In this document: positions 3,212 through 49,133 of the stretch, piece after piece | Layout of the letters: every line of letters starts with the position of its first letter | Numbering within the stretch: position 1 is the first letter of the stretch | Assembly (NCBI RefSeq): GCF_007752135.1 | Contig: NZ_CP036298.1 | Location: forward strand, 3,162,001 to 3,226,000 | Length of the DNA: 64,000 bases | From: Aureliella helgolandensis | GTDB taxonomy: Bacteria > Planctomycetota > Planctomycetia > Pirellulales > Pirellulaceae | Reading direction: 5' to 3' | Notes under the pieces: model-generated | What the model was told of the DNA's origin: nothing | Database searches by the model: none | Seen by the model: the letters and a program-made list of their open reading frames with translations, nothing else | Position numbers and translations under genes: made by a program

Positions 3212-3437
3212 GCCACTACCACTACCACTACCACTACCACTACCACTACCACTACCACTACCACTACCACTACCACTACCACTACCACTACCACTACCAC
3301 TACCACTACCACTACCGTCACCGTCACCGTCACCGTCACCGTCACCGTCACCGTCACCGTCACCGTCACCATCACCGTCACCATCGCCATCACCATCGCC
3401 ATCGCCATCACCATCGCCATCGCCATCGCCATCGCCA
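3212..3437. repeat. Hexanucleotide microsatellite (CCACTA)n-(CCGTCA)n-(CCATCG/CCATCA)n
   Basis: About 225 bases of 6-bp units in three blocks: roughly 17 copies of CCACTA, then about nine of CCGTCA, then mixed CCATCA/CCGTCA/CCATCG. The three blocks differ by single substitutions, so they look like one array that expanded and diverged. The unit length is a multiple of three, so all frames stay open (His-Tyr/His-Arg dipeptides on plus, Gly-Asp/Ser-Gly on minus), which creates misleading ORFs. It ends directly before the BrxL-like segment. Confidence 0.95.
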
Positions 3438-28695: not shown

Positions 28696-31116
28696 TCAAA
28701 ACAGGAAGGAATATCCCAGCACTATCGCCAGCAGGATCGGATAGACAAACCGCGACCAGCGGTCGATCCGTTCGGCCCGTGGCAATTTCTTGCCTCGAAT
28801 CAAAACTGTATTGACGACGGTTTGGATCAAGCCGGCAAATACCGTCAGCGTCGAGAGCAAAATGAACCGGTCCATACGCGTGATGTAGGAGACCCGCGGC
28901 AAGAGAACGGTAATCGCGAACAAGTAAGCAACCAGAGTCAGAAATGCGGAAGTGGAAACGCCGATATTCGTTCCAGTTTGCTCCGGGTCAATCCACCGAG
29001 GCAACCAGGACATGATGACAATCAGGCACAAAGGAATGATGACTTTAAGGATATAGAATGTCGACTGACGGTGAATGTTGATCTTCATTTCATACCCCGC
29101 CACGCCGACGTCACCTCCGTCAGGGTGGTAGGGAGACGACATGGCCTCCCAGGATTCGACGGTAAAATCCGGCAGAGAAAATTTGCTCGCGATGCTGGAG
29201 GATCTGCCCGCTTCATTGACAAGCGGCACCATTTTGACGTGTTCTTCCGAAAGTCCCGCCGCGACAAGCTGGATCGACAACGTCTGCTGATCGAACGGAA
29301 AATCCCGGAGCATCAGCGGCTGCGAGAACCGACCCCACACCTTTTGTCGAGAGATCACGATGCCGTCTGGTTGGATGTCAACGGACTCGGGAAACGACCG
29401 CCAGGCCATTTGTTGGCCAATGATCGTTAGTCGAGGAGACCAAACGTCGGAAATATTTCGATGCATCGGCCCGGGGCCTTTGTGACGCAACAACGGGTTC
29501 TTCCATCTCGCTTCGTAATAGACGCTGGCGGCAAAGCTCTGGTCGGCCGAATCGACTTCATCGACGTCGATGACAAAGATCGCCACCTGAACCTCCGTCG
29601 GTTCGCCCCAGACCGTCGGACGCTCCATCTCGGGTTTTGGCTCATCGACCAGCACCGACGGTTTCACTTCTTCAGCCGCCTCGGCGCCGGCAGGCTTTTG
29701 CACGGTCGCCGTCGGCGCCGAATCTGCCTTCCAAACCAGTGGTGGCGTCCACGTGCCGTCGTAGGCTTCCGGTTTCGGCCAATACAAACGCATAACCATG
29801 TAAAATGGGCCGTTCGGTGCCGGCAGCCAGTTGGCCGCCTCTTCTTCCGGCGACTGTAACTGAATGGCGATTGTCAGACCGCCTTTCGCATCGCGGTCAA
29901 GTGAATCAATCATTGATGAACTGATACGATATCGGCTGATCGGATTGGGGGCCAATGTGTTGCTCTGGCTGTCGTAAACCGTGATGGACCAGAACGCGCT
30001 GACCGGTGGCAGTTCTTCTGGTCCGATGTTCAATACATAGTTTGCCGCGCTCCCATCAAGCGGTTTCCCCTCGGCATCCGAGAGATACAACGGATAGAGT
30101 GCCTCTTCTTTGGAATTGGTGTAACGACCAAGCTTCGCAGCCACGGCGCGCTTGATCAGGTAGTCGCTGCCAAGAAATTCGCGGGCGCCAATCACCTCGG
30201 CGACCTTCAACTTGGCAGCCGCCGCCGTGATCGCAGCCTCACCCTCCGCCATACCTTTGGCGAGTGCCTCTTGGATTTCGGGGCTGACCGCGTCAACATT
30301 GAACGGCTCACCGGCAATGACACCCATGCGTGCCAGTCGCGTGATCAGTTCCTGTTCCGATGCATGAGGCGGACAGAATGGCAAAATGAAATTGAGTGTT
30401 GAAAAGAATGCGAGATCCGCGCCAGCATCAGACAACGGGAGTGGAAACTCGGTTTCGATCGCGGGAGCCGGCTTTGGCTCACCAGCAAATTCACTCAAAG
30501 TCTTCGAGGTGTACTGCTTCTGAATGTCCTTGACGTTCTCAAGATCATCGGGCCCGAGCAACTGCGTCCGATAGATGGCTAACGCAAATTCGGTCTCGCA
30601 TCGGATCACTTTGCTAATGCCCGTTGGCGTCTCGCCTGTCCAGTTTGGCCCGGCGATCAGGAATTGCCCCGCGCCATTGCCCGTTACTCTGGAACCGATG
30701 TAATCGAAATTGAACTTGAACAGGTCCGTCATCTGGATCGAATAGTAGCGTCCCTTCTCAATGGCGGGGACACCCAGCACGACAGGTTCATTTCTTAAGT
30801 CCATCCACAAGAATGAATAGGGCGTGTCGGCGTTGGGGGTCACGACCCCTTTGTCAGCCGGAGTGAATAAGTTGGCCTCGTGTTTGAGCGTATTCAGTGG
30901 TGCCTTGAATTCCTTCGCGGTGGTGTCGATGGCTGAGTCATACATCGACCGATAGCTCTCGACGATTGGAAAACCAAAGATGTAGGCTTCACGAGCGATC
31001 GTTTGCGCTTCTACGGACGACAGTTCCTGAGCCTGACTGAAATGCGGCATTATCGTTGCTGCAAACGCAGCACATGCTAGAAACACCGAGTTAATGACCT
31101 GGGGACCAGTGTGCAT
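28696..31116 (-). CDS. DUF1254/DUF1214 - pentameric ligand-gated ion channel fusion
   Basis: Predicted inner-membrane channel of 806 residues with a large periplasmic N-terminus. A signal peptide (about 1-30) is followed by DUF1254 (about 35-180: [34 protein letters not shown]) and DUF1214 (about 330-450: [39 protein letters not shown]), then an Ala/Pro/Glu linker to about 495. Next comes a Cys-loop-receptor-type ligand domain ([26 protein letters not shown], and [15 protein letters not shown], the loop lacking cysteines as in GLIC/ELIC). Four helices follow: [54 protein letters not shown] and [17 protein letters not shown]. The start at ATG 31116 is favoured by TTGAGGT upstream; a TTG at 31131 is the alternative. 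It sits behind a porin and a DUF4136 remnant. Confidence 0.9.
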
Positions 31117-31127
31117 CTGCAGATACC

Positions 31128-31639
31128 TCAAACGTTATGTGGTGGAAACTTTTTCAGCATTTCTGCAATTGCTGTACCGGTGCGACGTTCTTTCTCGGAG
31201 TCGTCGACATCGACCAACACATCTGCGATCGCAGTCGCTCTCCAAAGCACTTCCATCGTCTTTGAATCAAGGATACTGAGCTCGACTTGAGATTGTGACG
31301 GAAGCTATTGAGAGCGAACGTTCCGGTCTGAGGAAACTCAATTGTTGGGTCGAATGCCCAGGCAATCGTCATGCCATCGCTGCGATGCACGTTAACCTTC
31401 TTCAGCCGTGCGTTACCGCTCATGTCCAACTGAAAGTCACCGTAGGCTGTCGCGGTGGCATCGGTGATGAACGAACTCGGCAATAGTTTCGACATGACGT
31501 CGATGACGGCTTGCGGAACCATGTAACGACCGATCGATGTTCCGGACGCTCCCATTGCGAGCATTACGATCACAAAGATGGCGATCGCGATTATGACTCC
31601 GAATTGAGTGAGCGTCTCGACCAGAGTGCTTGCGACCAT
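31128..31639 (-). pseudogene. DUF4136-like membrane protein with internal deletion and frameshift
   Basis: The first about 115 codons (ATG 31639) read VETLTQFGVIIAIAIFVIVML, one membrane helix, a middle part, and then IAWAFDPTIEFPQTGTFAL, which matches the N-terminal block of DUF4136. After NSFRHNL the natural C-terminal block appears in another frame: SQVELSILDSKTMEVLWRAT, then [16 protein letters not shown] with a stop at 31128. The middle of the domain, normally about 80 residues, is missing. The unshifted frame continues to 31154 with meaningless sequence. So it is probably a deletion pseudogene between the porin and the channel genes. Confidence 0.6.
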
Positions 31640-31730
31640 GCTTAAATCCAATCAGTTATTCTTGATCGCGTAGTCGCCTACGACTAATGATTTGATCTCT
31701 TTGTTTTCGGCTTGAAGGAACAGTGCCGAA

Positions 31731-33068
31731 TTAGAGATCGAACTTGGCTCTCAACCCAAACATCACCATTGTATCGACACGCGAGCGCGCCGGTTCGACG
31801 ACTTGCAGGTCTGCCGTGACGTGGCACCAGGGGGGCACGCCGACGTTATAAAACATCTCAACGCCCTGCTCGTCCTGAAGTGGCAACAGTATCGGAGCGA
31901 GCTGTTTCAGTGGTTCGCTAACACCCGCGTAAAAGTAGCCAATTCCGAACGTGTCCTGCGGACGATTGCCGATTGGATTGGAACCACCCACGCCAATGTT
32001 CGCAGCCCAATTGAATGGGTTGGGATTATCGTCTGCGATCCCGACGTTTCCGAAGACACCCCAGGAACGTGTTGGATCATCGGGCGAAACATAGAGAGCT
32101 TGGTCGAATGCGTAGGCCAGCAACCACGAACCCGTCTTGTCAGGATTTGCTAAAACCACTCCCTGGCCTGGGTCAAAATAGGGATTGGGGTCGAGGCTAT
32201 TGTAGGTCCCGCTACTGTACAAACCATAAACCATCTGATGCCCGGGCTTGTTCATAAGCTTAGTCGGCAGGGTCGCCGAAGCGAACAGCGACACTCCATT
32301 ATCGAAGAACGTATCAAAGCCACTCACGGTCGGCGTATTGTTCGCGTCGTAGACGAACGCCGAAAATACAGCTTCCTGGTTTTCATCGAGTACGACCATT
32401 CCGGCACCGAACGATGAGTAGGGAAACGCCGTGACGAGAACTGGATTGAAACACAGGGCAAGGTTTTGAAACCCGTCTTGGCCGTTTGCTCCTCCGGTGA
32501 ATGGCTGAACAAAACCATCGAGTGTGTTGATTTTTCCGGCTTGCACCAAAACGGATTCACTCAGTGCCTGCGTAAAAGTGACGTTTGTGAGCGCCGTGAC
32601 GTCGCGATTTCCGTCGGGTAGTATTTGCGCCACGCTGACTGGCAGAAGCGTTCCAGAAAATTGGTTGATCGAGCTGCCAAACACTGACTCACCGTGCAGG
32701 TTGATCGTCAGACCATCCCATAAGCCAACCTTCTTTCCGTCGATGTTCAGAAACATATCGACCCGGCCGCGATAGCGGGAAGTCTCGTCGAGCCCGCCGG
32801 ATGTGATGTCTGAGTAAAAGTTGGTGTTGGAGATATTCCAGGTGTAACCTTTTTCCTCAAAGCACGACCTCAGGCCACACCAGTCTCCGGACAAAGTGGA
32901 GCGTTCCCAACACGAACTACCACAGACGGGCGCGTTGAACAGTGAATCGCAGGAAGCGTCGCATTGCGCAGCCGCTTGTTGGGGTAAGCATGCGGACAGA
33001 CAGACTTGCACGCCGATGAAAAGTCCGAGAGTCAACAACAGTAGCTTTTTTTGATATGAACCTAGCAC
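31731..33068 (-). CDS. OprB-family carbohydrate-selective outer-membrane porin
   Basis: Outer-membrane beta-barrel of 445 residues read from GTG 33068. Signal peptide KKLLLLTLGLFIGVQVCLSA, then a Cys-rich N-terminal stretch (CDASCDSLFNAPVCGSSCW), which is unusual for porins. OprB motifs follow: SGDWCGLRSCFEEKGYTW, NLHGESVFGSSINQ, SVLVQAGKINTLDGF, GIGYFYAGVS and a C-terminus ending in FDL, fitting a barrel end. It would pass sugars or other small solutes. It is the first gene of the minus-strand group leading to the ion-channel fusion, so it could supply the periplasm with the ligand (inference). Confidence 0.85.
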   Translation of the reverse strand: MLGSYQKKLLLLTLGLFIGVQVCLSACLPQQAAAQCDASCDSLFNAPVCGSSCWERSTLSGDWCGLRSCFEEKGYTWNISNTNFYSDITSGGLDETSRYRGRVDMFLNIDGKKVGLWDGLTINLHGESVFGSSINQFSGTLLPVSVAQILPDGNRDVTALTNVTFTQALSESVLVQAGKINTLDGFVQPFTGGANGQDGFQNLALCFNPVLVTAFPYSSFGAGMVVLDENQEAVFSAFVYDANNTPTVSGFDTFFDNGVSLFASATLPTKLMNKPGHQMVYGLYSSGTYNSLDPNPYFDPGQGVVLANPDKTGSWLLAYAFDQALYVSPDDPTRSWGVFGNVGIADDNPNPFNWAANIGVGGSNPIGNRPQDTFGIGYFYAGVSEPLKQLAPILLPLQDEQGVEMFYNVGVPPWCHVTADLQVVEPARSRVDTMVMFGLRAKFDL

Positions 33069-33677: not shown

Positions 33678-35229
33678 TTATTTACTCTTTTTTGCCGGCA
33701 CGTATGGATCAGGAGTACCGGGTGTAATTGGCGGTTCTGCGGCCAGCGACTTCCTATGTTCTGCCAGAATCGGCCCAAGCCCCCAACGTGACCAAAATCT
33801 ACCCGCCAATTCTCCGGTCACTGGATACTGTTCTTTAGGGTCACTATAGAGGTCGTAATAGTGAGGGAACGGGAACACGTTCAGTTTCCCATTACCCAGA
33901 TCTCCTTCAAACTCCATGAGCAGCATCTTATAGTTGTGCCACTTCACGCCGTGAATATCGTTACCGACATAGACGACAAAGCCGTCTCGACCGGACTCCT
34001 CTTGTTTCCCCAGGAAGAAATCCGTCATGTCCTTACTGTCGATGATACGATCTGTCGGCACCTTACCACCGGCAATGTTTGCCAATGTAGCGTACAGATC
34101 AAACTGGTGAACGATCTCGTTAGAGATCTTGCCTGCCGGAACTTTTCCAGGCCAGCGCACAATAAACGGCACCCGTAAGGACCCTTCCTTACCCGTGAAA
34201 TAGGAACCACTCCATGGGCCACTCCATCCCTGGTGATCGGGGGTCATCTCGGCGCCGTTATCCGATGTGAAAATGAAAATGGTATTGTCGGCAATACCCA
34301 ACTCATCCACCTTATCCAGTAATTCACCGGTATAGGCATCGATCTGCATTAGCACATCGCCCCAGCGGCCATTGCCACTCTTGCCTTGAAACTCCTTACT
34401 CGGCAACACCGGCATATGCGTCTGGGTGTAGGGCAGGTACAGGAAGAACGGTTTGCCGGCTTTGGCCTGGCGTGTCATGAAGTCCTTGGCATGGTCGGTG
34501 ACTTCACGGTCGATCTCGAGTCTTGCCGGCACGTCGTAGACTTTCACCACCTTTGCCGGTGAGCCTTTTTTGGCCGAATAAATAAATGTGCTCTTCCTTG
34601 ATCATCGGATTTTCACCGGTCTCCTCCGCCAATTTCCGATACTTCTGGAACATTTCATTCGCGACCCAAAGGCTCTCGTCGGTCGAATTGGGGATGCCAT
34701 ACCACTCATCGAATCCCTGATCTGTGGGATAGCGACCCTCCGCCTGGCCGAGGTGCCACTTGCCGAACATGGCGGTGGCATAACCCACATCGCCCAGCAT
34801 CTCCGGCATGGTGTATTCCCACTGGGTCAAACCATAATCGGCGGTTTCGAGCGGTACAGAACCGTTCCCCGTGCGGATCGCGTAGCGGCCGGTCATCAGC
34901 GCCGCGCGACTGGGAGTACATTGCGCCTCGACATTGTAATTCAACAGCCGCATCCCTTCACTGGCCAGTTTGTCGATGCGCGACGTGGCGCCACCCCGGA
35001 GAATACCCCCGCCGTAACAACCCAGTTCGCCGTAGCCGAAGTTGTCCATATTGATCAGAACAATGTTGGGCTTGGAGGCCTCTTCTTGGGCCACCACTGC
35101 TTTCTGCGACAATGGGACAATGTTCAGGCAGAGCCCGACCAATAAACAGCCACAAATAGTCAACCTCGTGACCTTCATCAATGGAATTGATAAAAACAGA
35201 CTTGGCGCGATTGTTGTTGTCTTGGTCAT
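33678..35229 (-). pseudogene. Arylsulfatase interrupted by a 4-bp duplication frameshift
   Basis: Two adjoining frames form one complete sulfatase of about 515 residues. The N-terminal frame (35229 down to about 34580) has a signal peptide, KPNIVLINMDNFGYGELG, active-site CTPSRAALMTGR with Cys104, and FGKWHLG. At 34577-34587 the sequence AATAAATAAAT contains an extra 4-base unit; removing it restores the path from EEHIY to SAKKGSPAKVVKVYDVPARL. The C-terminal frame (34550-33678) contains FIFTSDNGAEMTPDH, GSLRVPFIVRWPG and the natural end VPAKKSK. As written it makes only the truncated N-terminal half. The repeat is prone to slippage, so switching or a sequencing error is possible. Confidence 0.85.
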
Positions 35230-35423: not shown

Positions 35424-37805
35424 CTACTTCTTCTTCGCCGGGATGCTAATCGTGACGTCGTTCACACGTCCGGTGAACTCCGAGTCCTCAACATCCTTAA
35501 AGACCTTGTCAGCCACTGGCGTCGATTCATCGATGCCGACATCGGCTGTTTCATCGGCCGAGTAGACCGCCGGCTGAGTTTTTTCGACGCGTCCTTCGGC
35601 GACTTTTTCACCATCAACAAAGAGTTTGGCCAGACCTCCTTTGCCGATTCCGCCTCCGTCATAGTCAAAGACCAATTTGATCTCGGCCTTGTCCTTATCA
35701 ATTGCTTTCGGGGACGTGATGGTGTAACTATCCAGTCCGAACCAGTTGTAGGTGTAAGCGGGTTTGCCTTTGTCCATGTACAAAGCCCAGCCGCCGAACT
35801 TGCCGCCCTGGCAAAGAATCACACCTCGGTCACTGCCTTTTAGATCCACATTGGCAACGATGGTTTTGGACGTGTTCTTCTCGTTGATAAAGGTGTTCTC
35901 GAGAATACCCGTCATGCCATGGCCAAGGGTCAAGCTGGTTCTGTCACCCATCAAGTCCGGACGGCCAGCGATGGCAGCGTTGAAGCGTTCATAAGCTCGG
36001 TCATCCAAAGGATAGACGCTGTTGGCAATGGCCTCCTTCTTGAACAGTTCCTTCATCTCTTTCAGTTTTTCAGGATGCTTGTCGGCCAGATTGTTCGTCA
36101 GGCTAAAATCTTCCGTGGTGTTGTAGAGATCCCAGACGTCAGTCTGCAAAGTGTGGAATGGCTCGTTATTCCATGGAGCGCGATGAACGGCGCGGGCCAG
36201 CCAACCTTGGTGATAGATCGCTCGGTTGGCAAACATCTCAAAGTACTGAGTTGTATGCCGGTCTTTTGCTTTCGCGTCATCTGCCGCGTACAGCATGCTC
36301 ACACCGGACAGTGGCTTTTGTTTGACGCCATTGACGATCGTTGGCTGTGGCAGTTTCGCCGCATCCAGGACGGTCGCCGCAACATCGTTGACGTGGTGCC
36401 ACTGCGAACGAATCTCACCCTTGGACTTAAATCCTTTTGGCCAGTGCATGACCATTCCGTTGCGCGTGCCACCAAAGTCGGCGGCCATTTGCTTGGTCCA
36501 GGTAAACGGTGCATCCGTTGCTACCGCCCATGCAGCTGAAAAGTGAGGAAACGAGTTCGGGCCACCCCAGTCGTCGGCGCGAGCCAGCATGCTGTCAACG
36601 GTCTCCGCATCAAAGATGCCGTTCAGGTGAACGAGCTCGTTGTAAGTCCCTTCCAGGCCGCCTTCGCCACTCGAGCCGTTGTCGCCCATGATGTAGATGA
36701 ACAGCGTATTGTCCAATGCTCCGATATCGTCAATCGCCTCGACCAGTCGCCCGACTTGGTTGTCAGTATGCTCGGTGAAACCGGCAAACGCTTCCATTTG
36801 CAGAGCGAATAGTTCACGTTCCTTGTCGCTTAGCTTTTCCCAATCCTTGATGTCCGTTGGCATCGGTGCGAGCTTGGCATTTGGGGGAACGATGCCCATC
36901 GCTTTTTGGCGAGCAAGCGTCTCTTCGCGATACGTAAGCCAGCCGGAATCAAATTTCCCGTCATACTTCTCGATCCACTCTTTGGGTGCGTGGTGCGGCG
37001 CGTGCACGGCTCCCGGTGCGTAGTAAATAAAGAACGGTTTTTCTGGAGTCATCGCCTGTTGAAACTTCATCCAATTGATGGCTTCGTTGGTCATATCCGC
37101 GGTGAAGTGATAATCTGGATCGTCTTTCTTCTGAACTTTCGTGACCCCGTCAAAAATCACAGGATCCCATTGGTTGGTTTCGCCGCCAATAAAGCCATAG
37201 AACTTGTCAAAACCAGAGTGCGTTGGCCAGCGGAAATACGGTCCGGAAACCGAGACTTCCCATGTCGGTGTTTCGTGCCACTTTCCGAATGCAGCGGTGC
37301 TGTACCCGTTGTGTCGTAGTGTTTCCGCAAAGTATTTCGCGTCGTTCGATCGTTCGCCCTGGTTGCCAGGAAATCCAGTGGCGATTTCCATCACGCAGCC
37401 AACGTTGACTTCGTGATGATTCCGACCGGAAAGCAACGAGGCTCGTGTGGGCGAACATAGAGCGGTCGTGTGGAAATGGTTGAAACGCAATCCGTTGTTT
37501 GCCAGGCGATCAAAGGTCGGTGTTTCGATGGCTCCACCAAACGTACTGGTTGCGCCAAAGCCAATGTCATCAATCATGACGATGACGACGTTGGGAGCGC
37601 CCTCCGGTGGTTTGATCTGAAACATCGGAGGCTTCTTGGCATCTCGGGCGTCCAGCACCTCAATGGGCGCGTATGTTGGTGGCTGAATGGGCAGAACTGT
37701 TCTGTCCATTTTGTACTGTGCACCATCTTGCGCCATCGCAGACTGGTTATTGCAAACCAGCAATACTGCGATGGACAGAATGGGTATGAAGAATTGTTTT
37801 TTCAT
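35424..37805 (-). CDS. Large arylsulfatase
   Basis: Exported sulfatase of 793 residues, signal peptide MKKQFFIPILSIAVLLV...AMA. Metal-site Asp pair at 79-80 (VVIVMIDDIGFGA), active-site motif CSPTR with Cys117 to become formylglycine, SGRNHHEVNVGC, FGKWHETP, and IYIMGDNGSSGEGG. After about residue 600 comes a C-terminal domain (LILGH-like TLGHGMTGILENTFIN, then a jelly-roll-like stretch ending in VTISIPAKKK), as in the long arylsulfatases of marine planctomycetes and proteobacteria. Substrate unknown. It lies upstream of the frameshifted sulfatase, with HAD and DUF1254 genes further upstream on the same strand. Confidence 0.93.
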   Translation of the reverse strand: MKKQFFIPILSIAVLLVCNNQSAMAQDGAQYKMDRTVLPIQPPTYAPIEVLDARDAKKPPMFQIKPPEGAPNVVIVMIDDIGFGATSTFGGAIETPTFDRLANNGLRFNHFHTTALCSPTRASLLSGRNHHEVNVGCVMEIATGFPGNQGERSNDAKYFAETLRHNGYSTAAFGKWHETPTWEVSVSGPYFRWPTHSGFDKFYGFIGGETNQWDPVIFDGVTKVQKKDDPDYHFTADMTNEAINWMKFQQAMTPEKPFFIYYAPGAVHAPHHAPKEWIEKYDGKFDSGWLTYREETLARQKAMGIVPPNAKLAPMPTDIKDWEKLSDKERELFALQMEAFAGFTEHTDNQVGRLVEAIDDIGALDNTLFIYIMGDNGSSGEGGLEGTYNELVHLNGIFDAETVDSMLARADDWGGPNSFPHFSAAWAVATDAPFTWTKQMAADFGGTRNGMVMHWPKGFKSKGEIRSQWHHVNDVAATVLDAAKLPQPTIVNGVKQKPLSGVSMLYAADDAKAKDRHTTQYFEMFANRAIYHQGWLARAVHRAPWNNEPFHTLQTDVWDLYNTTEDFSLTNNLADKHPEKLKEMKELFKKEAIANSVYPLDDRAYERFNAAIAGRPDLMGDRTSLTLGHGMTGILENTFINEKNTSKTIVANVDLKGSDRGVILCQGGKFGGWALYMDKGKPAYTYNWFGLDSYTITSPKAIDKDKAEIKLVFDYDGGGIGKGGLAKLFVDGEKVAEGRVEKTQPAVYSADETADVGIDESTPVADKVFKDVEDSEFTGRVNDVTISIPAKKK

Positions 37806-37981: not shown

Positions 37982-39019
37982 TTAATCTTTTGAAAAGATG
38001 GTCTTCCAGTCCGACTTGATGTTGACGACGTTCCAGCCCTGCGCCTTCGCCTGCTTGAGCGAAGCGTTGTCTTTTTCGGCATACGCGTATTCGCGTTTGT
38101 CATCATCGTGATTGACGAGCAATTGGAATGAAGGCAGAGTGTTGCTGTGGCAATACGTCAACATGCCGATGTCGCCTCCAGTGCGTACATTTCCGCCGGC
38201 AAAGATCGGTTTGCGACCAATGTGCAAATCAATTCCCGTGGGCTTGGTCGCCTTGTCATTTAAGAACAGGTGGTCTGCCGTCTTGAACAGTTGCCACTTG
38301 CCATCAACTTGTTTGAACACATTTCGGCCGTTAGTGCCGATTACGTTTTCCGGAACAATCCCATAGGTTTCTTCCGAGGTGGCTCGCATGAAATCGATTC
38401 CGCCGCCGGAACAGATATAGGTCTTGAACCCATTGGCACGCAGATAAGCTAGCAACTCAACCATCGGCGAGTAGGCGAGCTGTGTGTAAGCCACTTTGAG
38501 CTTCGGGTGTTTGGCGGTCGCAAAGAAATCCCTGACGTGGCGATCAAACTCTTCCACCGACATACCGGCATGGGACGTTTCGATTACTTTCAGAAATTCA
38601 TGTCCGCCGTTTGCCAGATCGTCAACGAGACGTTGTACGTCGCCGGCAAGCACAGATTTATACGGTTCCTGTTCCTTCCATTCGGGATGATCGACTGCCA
38701 TCGCCTTAATGCGATATACAGCGAATTCAAACTGCACTACCGGTTGTTCGCACCATAAAGTTCCGTCGTTATCGAAGGTCGCGATCCGCTGTTCCGGCGG
38801 CACAAACTTCGGGCCACCCTCTTTGGTTATATCCTGCACGAACTGAAGGATCGCCGCTTTGGTCGGTCCGTCATTCCATGATCCCAGCGGATCCGTTGGC
38901 CGTGTACTACTGACGCTGCTAGCCAGCGGCTGCTCCTGGGCCATTGCCGATACCGCCAGCATCAGAGTCAGTCCGATACCCATCATTACTTGTTGAACCA
39001 TCTTCATCTCGCTTTTCAT
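37982..39019 (-). CDS. Exported HAD-superfamily phosphatase
   Basis: Protein of 345 residues with a signal peptide (MMGIGLTLMLAVSAMA). HAD motif I is ATFDNDGTLW with Asp83 (nucleophile) and Asp85. Motif II lies in TYICSGGGIDFMRA, and a late motif near PIFAGGNVRTGGDIGML gives the acidic residues for Mg. Similar proteins are annotated as phosphoserine-phosphatase-like; they are often found near arylsulfatases in planctomycetes. Periplasmic location suggests hydrolysis of organic phosphates. A 44-residue ORF precedes it by 35 bases and may be in the same transcript. Confidence 0.85.
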   Translation of the reverse strand: MKSEMKMVQQVMMGIGLTLMLAVSAMAQEQPLASSVSSTRPTDPLGSWNDGPTKAAILQFVQDITKEGGPKFVPPEQRIATFDNDGTLWCEQPVVQFEFAVYRIKAMAVDHPEWKEQEPYKSVLAGDVQRLVDDLANGGHEFLKVIETSHAGMSVEEFDRHVRDFFATAKHPKLKVAYTQLAYSPMVELLAYLRANGFKTYICSGGGIDFMRATSEETYGIVPENVIGTNGRNVFKQVDGKWQLFKTADHLFLNDKATKPTGIDLHIGRKPIFAGGNVRTGGDIGMLTYCHSNTLPSFQLLVNHDDDKREYAYAEKDNASLKQAKAQGWNVVNIKSDWKTIFSKD

Positions 39020-39826: not shown

Positions 39827-40285
39827 TCATCGCTCAAATCTTGCTTTTACATCTGTAGCCGATGGCGCTGGCACCCAGGCATCACTGTCCTTGTAAGTCA
39901 GGTTGCCGGGATTACGCGGGAAGTAGCTGATGGCGCGGGCGGCACCGTTACCAATCGCGGAGGCGTCGGTCAGGATCTTCTTCATGCGTGCATCCGGAGC
40001 GAAAGGCTTGCCCTTTTCGATCCCGATCGCCGCCATCATTCCCCTGGCTTCCGGGCCGAGATAACTTTCCAGTTCTGTTTGAATCAAGACGTACAGTTTT
40101 TCGAACGCGCTGTAATCATTCGGCAGAATCACGTGCATGTCCTTGCCGGATACGTTGATAAACTCGGTGGCCGGGGGGGCATCCGCGGTCGACAGCGGGT
40201 ACACCGTCAGCGTGCTGCGGATGTTCTTCGACGCGGCCGGGACAGCCTTTTCGATGGGCATGCTCTTGTCGAGATAGCGGTCCAT
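39827..40285 (-). pseudogene. Internal fragment of a DUF1254 protein
   Basis: 152 residues corresponding to the middle of DUF1254 proteins: DRYLDKSMPIEKAV, NIRSTLTVYPLS, ATEFINVSGKDMHVILPNDY, and GIEKGKPFAPDARMKKIL, the last nearly the same as in the full-length gene at 40715-42232. The N-terminal signal and first domain and the whole DUF1214 C-terminus are missing. An ATG at 40285 lies 6 bases after the csrA stop, so it could still be translated by coupling. I regard it as a decayed copy. Confidence 0.65.
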
Positions 40286-46268: not shown

Positions 46269-49133
46269 CTAGCCCTTCTCCAACAGACCAAGCTCCTCGG
46301 CCTTGAGCACGGCTTGACGTCGGCCAGTGACATGCAGCTTCTCGAAAATGTGCTTCACGTGCGTCCGAACGGTCCAAACCGAGATGGAGAGGGCTTTTGC
46401 TATTTCTTTGTCGTAAAGCCGCAGGGCCAGCATTTGCAGGGTTTCGAGTTCCCGTTGGGTCAACGTCTCCACATAGGGCTCAGCGCTTGAGGTCCCGTCC
46501 GAGACGGTAGGCCCCGATTCAGCAACGATGGGAATGCTCGTCTTCGCCTGCCCCGATGACTCATGCGCCGGTGCACTCGGGGTTTCCGCAAAGGCCTCCA
46601 ACAGGCGATCGACGAATTCAATTGAAACATTTTCTAATGGTGCTCGTTGGAGCAGGCTGGTCATCGGTGGACCCAACTCCAAAAATGGCCGGACCCATCC
46701 CCCTGACTCGGCGAGTGCCAGCGCCTCGTCAAGTGAGTTAAACGCATCATCCGTAGAGCCTTGCCTGTCAAACGCGACGGATTGCAGGGCGGCAGCTTCA
46801 ATCGTCTGGCAAGTGAATCGGCAAGACTCACTCGCCTCGCGAATTGCTTTGAGAGATTTGGTCGCAGTTGCCAAATCTCGCTTCGAACCAGCTGTGATCA
46901 AAACTCTCGCCTGAGTGATCGCTGGGGCTTCCAACCAGAGGAACAACGATGATGGCACTGCTTGTTCGTTCACAGAGCGAGCCCACTGCAAGGCTCGCCT
47001 CGAGTCGCCTCGCAACAAAGCGATTCGAGCCTGCAACGAATCAGCCAAGTCCAGGTATTGACGTTCGTTCAAGTCCTGGGCGAATCGCTGCAACAGGTTC
47101 GTCGTCTCGTCGGCTTCGTTCTCCCGTTGACGGAGTTGTTGGCAGAGTGCTAAGCCCGCGAGCGTGTCCACAGCCGCCCTGGGGTCCAGAACATATCTAA
47201 ACTCCGCGGCATCCGCAAACAGACCGGTCGCAGCCTCAAGCTCGCCGGCATGCAAGTGACCCCACGCCTGCAAGTAGTAAGCCCAGGCCTCGGTATTGCG
47301 GATGCGGAGTTTATTAGCCACAAGCTTTAGACGTTGCGCGTCGAGGCGAGAGCGATGCAGATCACCCGAGATCGAGTGTACAAAGGCCAAGCCGGCCGTA
47401 AGCCTCGAGAAAAGCTGATTCTCCGAAACGCCGAAACGATCGATCCGGTCTTCCAATCCTCGAACAGCCATTTTCTCATGCCCGCCCATGCAAAGCGCTA
47501 GTGCGAGCATTAATTCAGCCTCACCCTCGATCGGATTCTTCTCGCCCGAAATCTTCGAGATCGCCTCTTCCAAGTACTGCTGACTGCTCTGAGCATTGCC
47601 TTCCCAGTATTCTAGGAATCCCCGAAGGTAGGCCAGTTCTCCCCGAACCGCTGGCTCTACGGTCTGCTCGCGTAACAAGTTTTCCACCTGCTCGATGATT
47701 GTCGGGATTCGCGCGACCTGAAATCGGCAAATCGCGATCGAAGCCTCGGCCAACAGCAACTTTGGCCGCTGCTGCTTGACGCCGTCCGGAAGCATCGACA
47801 GCCAACGCTCAACCACGTACCAGCGATCTGCTGCGAACTCGTCGCGGCGGCACCTCTCGATGATTTCGGCCGCTCGTACTACGTCTTCCGCCGCCAGGGC
47901 ATGTTCGATCGATTCCGTGATCAACCCCTGGCTTTCATACCAAACACTGCCCCGAGAATGCACGCCGGCAATGTCCTTGGGCGAATAGCACTGTTGCAGT
48001 TGCCTTCTTAGAAGGTCTTGGAACAGATGATGGTAGCGAAACCACTGGCCTTGGGAATCCAACGGAACAACGAACAGATTGGCAAGCTGGGCGTCTTCAA
48101 TGAATTTCTCGCCGCTCGTGTTCTTGTCAGTGGAATCGTTTGGCGAGACGCAAACCGCTTCGACAAGCGAGGGGCAAAAACGACTCAATACAGAGGTCTG
48201 CAGTAAGCAATCACGCATCGCTGCCGGTTGCCCGGTCAGAACTTGTTCAGATAGGTAGTCGTAGACTTGCTGAAAGCCACCCTTCAACCCATACAAGAAC
48301 GCTTCTGGGACAGACTGGTTGCGAATGACAAGACCGACCAGGTGCAGGCCAACAATCCACCCCTCTACCTGCTGCTCGAGGTGCTCGAGTGTCGCTTGAC
48401 TGACGGACACTCCCGCCATCTCGCCAAGCACTGCGTTGACTTCCGCATTCGTGAAGCGGAGATCGTCCTGGTGAATTTCTGTCAACCAGCCCCGTGCCCG
48501 CAGTGATGCCATTGAGATCGGCGGATCGTGCCGCGTCACCAATACCAGGTGCAGCGGACGTGGTGGATGAAGCAACAGTTTGTCGAGTAATTCGTGGATA
48601 CCGGAATTCGAAATCAGATGGTAGTCATCCAAAACGACAACCAGAGGCTCGGCAATGGAATCCAAATCGTTACTCAAGGTTTCTGCGAGCAGTAACGACG
48701 GCGGCAACTGTGCCGCCTCAAGCAGAACAGCGGTGTCAGAACATGCTGTTGGGAAGCGGACTTGAACTGCGGCGACCAGATAGCTCAAGAAGGTCCTGAG
48801 TTCACTATTCTCATCGCCTAATTGGACCCAGGCAGGTTTGACTTCGGCATCCTGTAGCCACTGCGAAACCAACGTTGTTTTTCCATAGCCAGCCGGCGCC
48901 GACACGACGGTCAACGGCCGGCGCGGATTCCGCTGCAGCAATTCGACTAATCGCGGACGAGAGATGAGACGCTGCACCGCCGCGGGCGGTCGCAGCTTGG
49001 TCCGCAGAATCATCGTCGCAGAGGGCTGGCCCATCCCTGTACTGGCGTTCGAATCGTTCGTCACTGACTTTCGCAACTTTTCCTGCCTGTTCTGAGTACA
49101 AAATGCATTCGTGGTCGGGCCGCATAAGATCAT
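46269..49133 (-). CDS. MalT-like (LAL) LuxR-family ATP-dependent regulator
   Basis: Transcription factor of up to 954 residues. The N-terminal segment MILRTKLRPPAAVQRLISRP is typical of MalT-like proteins. Walker A is SAPAGYGKTTLVSQW (about residues 78-92), and the Walker B region is VVVLDDYHLI. A long helical TPR-like sensor region follows (about 400-830). The C-terminal LuxR HTH is at about 875-940 (LTQRELETLQMLALRLYDKE, SISVWTVRTHVKHIFEKL). ATP and an inducer normally control such proteins. The true start may be the ATG at 49034 (MGQPSAT), since nothing before it is conserved. Target unknown; no obvious sugar operon next to it. Confidence 0.9.
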   Translation of the reverse strand: MILCGPTTNAFCTQNRQEKLRKSVTNDSNASTGMGQPSATMILRTKLRPPAAVQRLISRPRLVELLQRNPRRPLTVVSAPAGYGKTTLVSQWLQDAEVKPAWVQLGDENSELRTFLSYLVAAVQVRFPTACSDTAVLLEAAQLPPSLLLAETLSNDLDSIAEPLVVVLDDYHLISNSGIHELLDKLLLHPPRPLHLVLVTRHDPPISMASLRARGWLTEIHQDDLRFTNAEVNAVLGEMAGVSVSQATLEHLEQQVEGWIVGLHLVGLVIRNQSVPEAFLYGLKGGFQQVYDYLSEQVLTGQPAAMRDCLLQTSVLSRFCPSLVEAVCVSPNDSTDKNTSGEKFIEDAQLANLFVVPLDSQGQWFRYHHLFQDLLRRQLQQCYSPKDIAGVHSRGSVWYESQGLITESIEHALAAEDVVRAAEIIERCRRDEFAADRWYVVERWLSMLPDGVKQQRPKLLLAEASIAICRFQVARIPTIIEQVENLLREQTVEPAVRGELAYLRGFLEYWEGNAQSSQQYLEEAISKISGEKNPIEGEAELMLALALCMGGHEKMAVRGLEDRIDRFGVSENQLFSRLTAGLAFVHSISGDLHRSRLDAQRLKLVANKLRIRNTEAWAYYLQAWGHLHAGELEAATGLFADAAEFRYVLDPRAAVDTLAGLALCQQLRQRENEADETTNLLQRFAQDLNERQYLDLADSLQARIALLRGDSRRALQWARSVNEQAVPSSLFLWLEAPAITQARVLITAGSKRDLATATKSLKAIREASESCRFTCQTIEAAALQSVAFDRQGSTDDAFNSLDEALALAESGGWVRPFLELGPPMTSLLQRAPLENVSIEFVDRLLEAFAETPSAPAHESSGQAKTSIPIVAESGPTVSDGTSSAEPYVETLTQRELETLQMLALRLYDKEIAKALSISVWTVRTHVKHIFEKLHVTGRRQAVLKAEELGLLEKG

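Follow-up and report, generated by a model that had tools for sequence, protein, structure and literature searches.

A conserved fusion of a DUF1254-DUF1214 module to a pentameric ligand-gated ion channel in Aureliella helgolandensis and other planctomycetes

A single gene of Aureliella helgolandensis (Planctomycetota, Pirellulaceae) encodes a DUF1254-DUF1214 pair followed by the ligand-binding domain (LBD) and membrane part of a pentameric ligand-gated ion channel (pLGIC). Comparison with relatives indicates that this fusion is real, conserved and probably moving horizontally. The gene lies in the window analysed here, a stretch of 64,000 nucleotides (positions 3,162,001 to 3,226,000 of contig NZ_CP036298.1) from a genome assembled in one contig and 99.8% complete. 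We lean slightly towards a product that forms a subunit of an inner-membrane pLGIC, whose periplasmic DUF1254-DUF1214 accessory domain would capture or process a small molecule and modulate the channel.

The gene, on the minus strand at 28696-31116, comprises 806 codons with zero internal stops, which bears out the earlier note's claim that one uninterrupted frame joins DUF1254-DUF1214 to the LBD and four membrane helices; the plus strand of the same interval contains many stops in the frame shown. A GAGG upstream of the ATG ends 9 bases before it, and predicted promoters and terminators near the gene were in no excess over shuffled sequence. The chain runs from a signal-peptide-like start through DUF1254, DUF1214, a linker and the LBD to the four membrane helices (Table 1). 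Four Pfam families were detected in the 806-aa protein at E 0.01 and all four pass their curated cut-offs, including Neur_chan_memb at 38 bits vs 28. Similarly, phmmer against PDB sequences matched residues 39-459 to VPA0106 (3u07; E 2e-43) and residues 500-798 to a GLIC-glycine receptor chimaera (E 7.5e-29), with many GLIC and glycine/GABA-A receptor chains coming next among the best 60 of 267 matches. Judged by eye, no signal-peptide-like stretch precedes the LBD, so the signal of the module would have to export both halves, and an internal start giving a separate channel was thought unlikely on the same ground. The interval that separates the OprB gene from the fusion (31117-31731, minus strand) has no apparent intact gene with a Pfam match; it contains a 165-aa frame without a match and coding-like fragments in two frames.

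Table 1. Parts of the fusion gene and neighbouring features, in window coordinates.
Feature	Position	Strand	Basis or remark
Fusion gene DUF1254-DUF1214-pLGIC	28696..31116	-	ATG at 31116, TGA at 28696-28698
Signal-peptide-like N-terminus, residues 1-30, hydrophobic, ending in SQAQ	31027..31116	-	translation judged by eye
DUF1254, residues 75-203	30508..30894	-	Pfam PF06863, E 6e-45, 153 bits vs cut-off 22
DUF1214, residues 338-448	29773..30105	-	Pfam PF06742, E 6.5e-32, 111 bits vs cut-off 25
Linker, 32 aa, residues 466-497, Ala/Pro/Glu rich	29626..29721	-	in frame
pLGIC ligand-binding domain, residues 497-659	29140..29628	-	Pfam PF02931 Neur_chan_LBD, E 2e-12, 47 bits vs cut-off 26
Membrane part, four helices, residues 685-805 in low-confidence model	28702..29064	-	Pfam PF02932 Neur_chan_memb, residues 692-771
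Remnant of DUF1254/DUF1214 gene, 42 aa	28291..28416	-	76% to residues 447-488 of 489, gene after G759 fusion
OprB-type porin, nearest intact upstream neighbour of fusion	31731..33068	-	Pfam OprB, 7e-42
Large sulfatase, signal-like N-terminus, CSPTR motif	35424..37805	-	Pfam Sulfatase, 7e-58
HAD-type phosphatase, hydrophobic N-terminus	37982..39019	-	Pfam HAD, 5e-8
Remnant of second DUF1254/DUF1214 gene	39830..40285	-	67% to residues 208-357, gene before G759 fusion
Intact stand-alone DUF1254/DUF1214 protein, 516 aa	40715..42265	-	both Pfam domains; 51-53% to G759-cluster gene

The C-terminal half has the domain order of a pLGIC, with Neur_chan_LBD and then Neur_chan_memb in one chain, both above the Pfam cut-offs. 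An alignment of the fused and close stand-alone channel rows contains the pLGIC hallmarks: an FP(F/M)D pro-loop, the M1 proline, leucine at M2 9' and an LPR(V/I)SY M2-M3 loop. No Cys-loop cysteines occur in the signature-loop stretch of 19 aligned rows. The label Cys-loop-type used in the earlier note is loose, as the loop here is a cysteine-free pro-loop (FPFD) and not that of an animal-type Cys-loop receptor. Charged pore-mouth rings at M2 distinguish cation from anion channels. Read by hand from an alignment with the glycine receptor, M2 -2'/-1'/0' is G-T-N, neither the P-A-R of that receptor nor an acidic ring; among the stand-alone rows, a single one (L029) carries Asp at -2'. Since M2 is without the usual charged ring, ion selectivity and even conduction are uncertain. 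The NCBIfam models LGIC_1 and TIGR00860, both typed as subfamily models, scored below their curated cut-offs (115 bits vs 500 and 108 bits vs 280, respectively). A full-length model was poor (pLDDT 50), too poor for placing the module on the channel; with low confidence it predicts a beta-rich region with strands at 508-683 and membrane-length helices within 685-805, and its Foldseek matches include GABA-A, glycine receptor, GLIC and DeCLIC chains.

The N-terminal half belongs to the DUF1254/DUF1214 family by both Pfam domains, each above its cut-off, and by the VPA0106/VPA0735 fold. AlphaFold2 modelling of the module (residues 29-465, six sequences) gave a mean pLDDT of 69 and a pTM of 0.65, and the model matches 3u07 at TM 0.73-0.75 (by query length), as well as 2p3y/3vb9 and, weakly, 6ans. 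Beyond VPA0106, VPA0735 and 6ans, whose entry titles name no function, the model had no fold match at E 0.001, and no characterised enzyme was among the matches. The accessible portions of papers naming these domains or their structures gave no ligand or tested activity; VPA0735 appears there as a fold in one paper and as a gene-cluster member in another. The family is well represented in the host, with 11 DUF1254/DUF1214 matches in eight open frames, fusion included. Other arrangements of the module were also seen by phmmer, namely two copies of a DUF1254/DUF1214-type module in one 1031-aa chain (G130 L100:1568-4663) and four DUF1254/DUF1214-type genes in a row, one apparently two-module (G021 L106:1408-8723). 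At four further loci (L102:1070-3430, L103:1652-4240, L104:2-3133 and L105:908-3184) the module halves are separated by a long, charged, low-complexity insert.

A search for the architecture in other planctomycetes, as proposed in the earlier note, found it in six further genomes, three of them with complete genes, and so ruled out its absence from relatives; the seven genomes, the window's own included, cover at least three families. The complete genes are those of Blastopirellula sp. NORP48 (G034, L063; 806 aa, 70% identical), of G759 (85% identical, start codon uncertain), a single-contig genome of another family, and of G699 (802 aa, 65% identical), a single-contig genome of the same other family as G759. 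In CS4-C045 (G683) both halves are present, with the frame interrupted where the record has an N, the fusion of Planctomicrobium CSMAG_88 meets a contig end after 120 channel residues, and Ww544 (G154), also at a contig end, has the last 33 aligned module residues and the whole channel. The linker frame is intact in the window gene and in the six relatives with a readable linker, which ruled out the linker frameshift (29.6-29.75 kb) that the earlier note had named as a danger. A scan of named genomes gave 11 loci, comprising four fusions (L063, L064, L069 and L070), five stand-alone channels (L065-L068 and L071), one stand-alone start at a contig end (L072) and one channel piece near, but separate from, a DUF1254 gene (L073). 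There are close channels without a module (63-71% identical), and no DUF1254 gene was found near them in nine loci (L052-L055, L065, L068, L087-L089); in G239 a broken channel piece lies about 2.3 kb from a DUF1254 gene. Conversely, G176 and G178 contain remnants of fused-type modules without a channel.

Own genome counted, the fusion was found in at least three of the family's 241 genomes (in one of them truncated by a contig end), in at least four of 396 genomes sampled in the order and in at least one of 392 sampled in the phylum; these are lower bounds, because the samples overlap, few places were scored per genome and one of the surveys counted listed matches only. No independent fusion was seen elsewhere with up to four places scored per genome in the family and two in the order and phylum, at strict E-values, and for this reason distant independent fusions could be missed. 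Such rarity, together with the DUF1254 remnants that flank the fusion and the channel-less remnants of G176 and G178, is what might be expected of a recent neutral fusion, or of an assembly or frameshift artefact, without a function. We regard this as highly improbable, as the conserved orthologues in seven genomes of at least three families mostly refute it, complete frames are present in three single-contig genomes (the window's, G759 and G699) and dN/dS is 0.09-0.23 across the module, linker, LBD and membrane part. Frameshift or assembly artefact was rejected outright as an explanation, given a frame that is open and conserved in relatives and a dN/dS indicative of purifying selection.

These ratios come from a custom Nei-Gojobori script and from comparison with G759; comparisons with G034 and G699 were mostly saturated at synonymous sites. 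The module has a ratio of 0.23, the linker (32 codons) 0.12, the LBD 0.09 and the membrane part 0.15, and the signal region (23 codons) has 0.23 at a dS of 2.75. On this comparison, purifying selection is acting on module, linker and channel alike. The synonymous difference from G759 is uneven (module 0.27, LBD 0.53, membrane part 0.37), which may reflect recombination inside the fusion gene.

The linker bears on a reading in which the chain is a polyprotein, whose cleavage in the linker would release the DUF1254 part as a soluble protein and leave an ordinary channel. Relatives have both halves unfused and the linker appears flexible, but by eye it contains no hydrophobic, signal-peptidase-like stretch, and its dN/dS is unlike that of a discarded spacer; we consider such cleavage quite improbable. 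A better, though still minority, chance is given to the module being an enzyme or carrier merely held beside the channel at the inner membrane, with no allosteric coupling. The 43 stand-alone modules share 59 positions conserved at 95% or more; six fused rows (one partial, gaps passed over) are identical at 47 of these, and the other 12 differ in at least one row, most often in G699. This retention suits an independent activity. The length and composition of the linker, the existence of close channels without a module and a glycosyl-hydrolase-like jelly roll predicted for PF06742 (PMC4634964, in excerpt) point the same way. Against mere tethering, the linker itself is under purifying selection, though over 32 codons only, and the fold matches listed above lack a characterised enzyme.

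The history of the fusion can be outlined from two sets of trees. In a module tree of 33 rows, hand-picked from 77 collected after removal of duplicate records, the six fused modules and the remnants of G176 and G178 form one clade (94/98) with the stand-alone modules outside, so a single fusion is likely. In the channel tree, stand-alone channels are interspersed among fused ones. Constraining the fused channels together was disfavoured, with AU p values of 0.024 (far outgroups), 0.018 (near outgroups) and 0.020 (no outgroup), as was constraining the stand-alone channels together (0.021). The first channel tree used 21 of 26 rows, five being left out, and the second was built without the two most distant outgroup rows and two partial ones. 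Rooting is weak, the outgroup branch being very long and the inner branches mostly unstarred. In a control with shuffled labels the state "fused" showed no clustering in the channel trees, as 319 of 500 shuffles, then 363 and 381 of 500, were as low. This control, the scatter and the weak rooting count against our overall reading. The scatter is best read as one old fusion followed by repeated loss of the module, which is its simplest explanation. End branches in the second channel tree are 0.06-0.15 for five of the six fused rows and 0.48 for Ww544, and every stand-alone lineage sits on a long branch (0.45-0.52) or on a long common stem (0.25). Faster change after module loss would fit these long branches; equally, since they exceed those of five of the six fused rows, the scatter may partly be long-branch error. 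Horizontal transfer is likely, because the fusion genes of the window and of G759 agree at 86% of 2,428 aligned DNA positions, whereas two further proteins encoded at the G759 locus, provisionally termed FliM-like and dihydropteroate-synthase-like, match the host genome at 58%.

The gene neighbourhood offers candidate partners for the module, among them the porin, sulfatase, phosphatase and intact DUF1254 protein of Table 1. The NORP48 fusion is flanked by relatives of the sulfatase (47.5%), phosphatase (47%) and porin (36%), which are encoded on the other strand. In G176 a 92% sulfatase relative adjoins the module remnant, and in G236 one of two stand-alone channels, a close one, lies directly after a large CSPTR sulfatase (38%) in operon-like fashion (L054:6678-10200, minus strand). 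At the threshold used, no sulfatase, phosphatase or porin relative was present in the loci of G759, G699, CSMAG_88 and Ww544 (17, 16, 5.6 and 8.8 kb, respectively; the 3.3-kb CS4-C045 contig was excluded), and of seven loci with a stand-alone channel that were compared, six likewise had none. The association is therefore partial, as these genes stand beside a fusion only here and in NORP48. At the G759 locus the fusion is in a row with three further module-matching genes and a TetR-type regulator, all on the same strand. Elsewhere in the window, a second sulfatase (33678-35229, minus strand) is spread over two overlapping frames (33678-34550 and 34504-35229) and, because each matches Pfam Sulfatase, the gene is probably broken. 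A large MalT-like LuxR-type regulator of 954 aa (46269-49133, minus strand) lies upstream of the DUF1254 gene. At 3213-3437 there is a 6-base array of CCACTA (17 perfect copies) and then ACCGTC/ACCATC (about 20 copies), which lies inside an open frame with the translation HYHYHY.

Taken together, a periplasmic accessory domain that modulates the channel remains our preferred reading. The export signal of the module would carry the ligand domain of the channel into the periplasm, and an inner-membrane homopentamer with periplasmic ligand domains would result, crowned by five modules on flexible linkers. The module may capture or process a small molecule that either crosses the outer membrane or is set free by enzymes encoded nearby, presumably of a kind admitted or made by the porin, the sulfatase, the phosphatase and the DUF1254 proteins of the neighbourhood. 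Occupancy of the module, or its product, would then modulate channel opening by way of the ligand domain of the channel itself. As close relatives lack the module, the channel core probably works without it; these module-less channels and the repeated loss suggested by the tree count against obligate gating by the module. A bolder and rather doubtful proposal is that the module acts as an enzyme, or as a sensor of the product of the neighbouring sulfatase and phosphatase, that makes or hands over the agonist of its own channel. If this ligand-making channel were true, each subunit would bring its own agonist supply, and lineages that lost the module would depend on free DUF1254 proteins for the ligand or respond to a different one. 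DUF1254/DUF1214 proteins are common and have solved structures, and fusion to a channel offers a direct current assay for candidate ligands. The channel may thus help to reveal what the module binds or makes.

How far the architecture has been described was assessed through PMC term searches, which found no paper naming both DUF1254 and "ligand-gated ion channel". A term search of Jaiteh 2016 (PMC4795631) found none of "N-terminal", "fused" and "periplasmic", and broad literature searches and a 9FTG search did not show the architecture among the matches listed. Within these searches, and as far as they reach, the combination is undescribed, though an automatic domain-architecture listing may exist. 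The earlier note's suggestion of an undescribed system holds for this combination in that no paper was found, but not for the principle, since periplasmic sensor-domain fusions of pLGICs are already on record: bacterial pLGICs fused N-terminally to PBP-I or MCP-N/Cache domains have been known since 2005 (Tasneem et al., PMC549065). These share with the present protein an N-terminal periplasmic module and stand-alone modules in gene neighbourhoods. They differ in that PBP-I and MCP-N/Cache are known small-molecule binders, whereas for DUF1254/DUF1214 no known ligand was found in the sources available; PBP-I, MCP-N and Cache domains are absent from the 806-aa protein (Pfam, E 0.01).

Among characterised channels, DeCLIC of Desulfofustis (PDB 6v4s, 7q3g and 9ftg) is similar in having a prokaryotic pLGIC core and a large extra periplasmic N-terminal domain before the LBD. 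That domain consists of two beta-rich lobes, NTD1 and NTD2, with calcium sites reported in NTD1 (PMC9897478 and PMC12664993, in excerpt), and it influences gating kinetics (PMC9897478, same excerpt); a 2025 paper describes it, in the part available, as the only partly characterised pLGIC N-terminal domain (PMC12664993). In the window's fusion, by contrast, DUF1254 and DUF1214 account for the N-terminal domain, the model of which matches VPA0106 and VPA0735, and DeCLIC is not among the best 50 of 410 structural matches of the module model. VPA0106 and VPA0735 (PDB 3u07, 2p3y and 3vb9) share the fold of the N-terminal half, 3u07 also by sequence, but are stand-alone DUF1254-DUF1214 proteins without a channel. 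Conversely, the proton-gated GLIC and the glycine and GABA-A receptors resemble the ligand domain and four-helix core, while their matched chains are without such an N-terminal module, and the pore-mouth residues of the glycine receptor differ from those of the fusion. Because N-terminal sensor-domain fusions of pLGICs are a known theme, the DUF1254/DUF1214-pLGIC is a variant and no new kind of system, one that widens the range of N-terminal domains seen in pLGICs.
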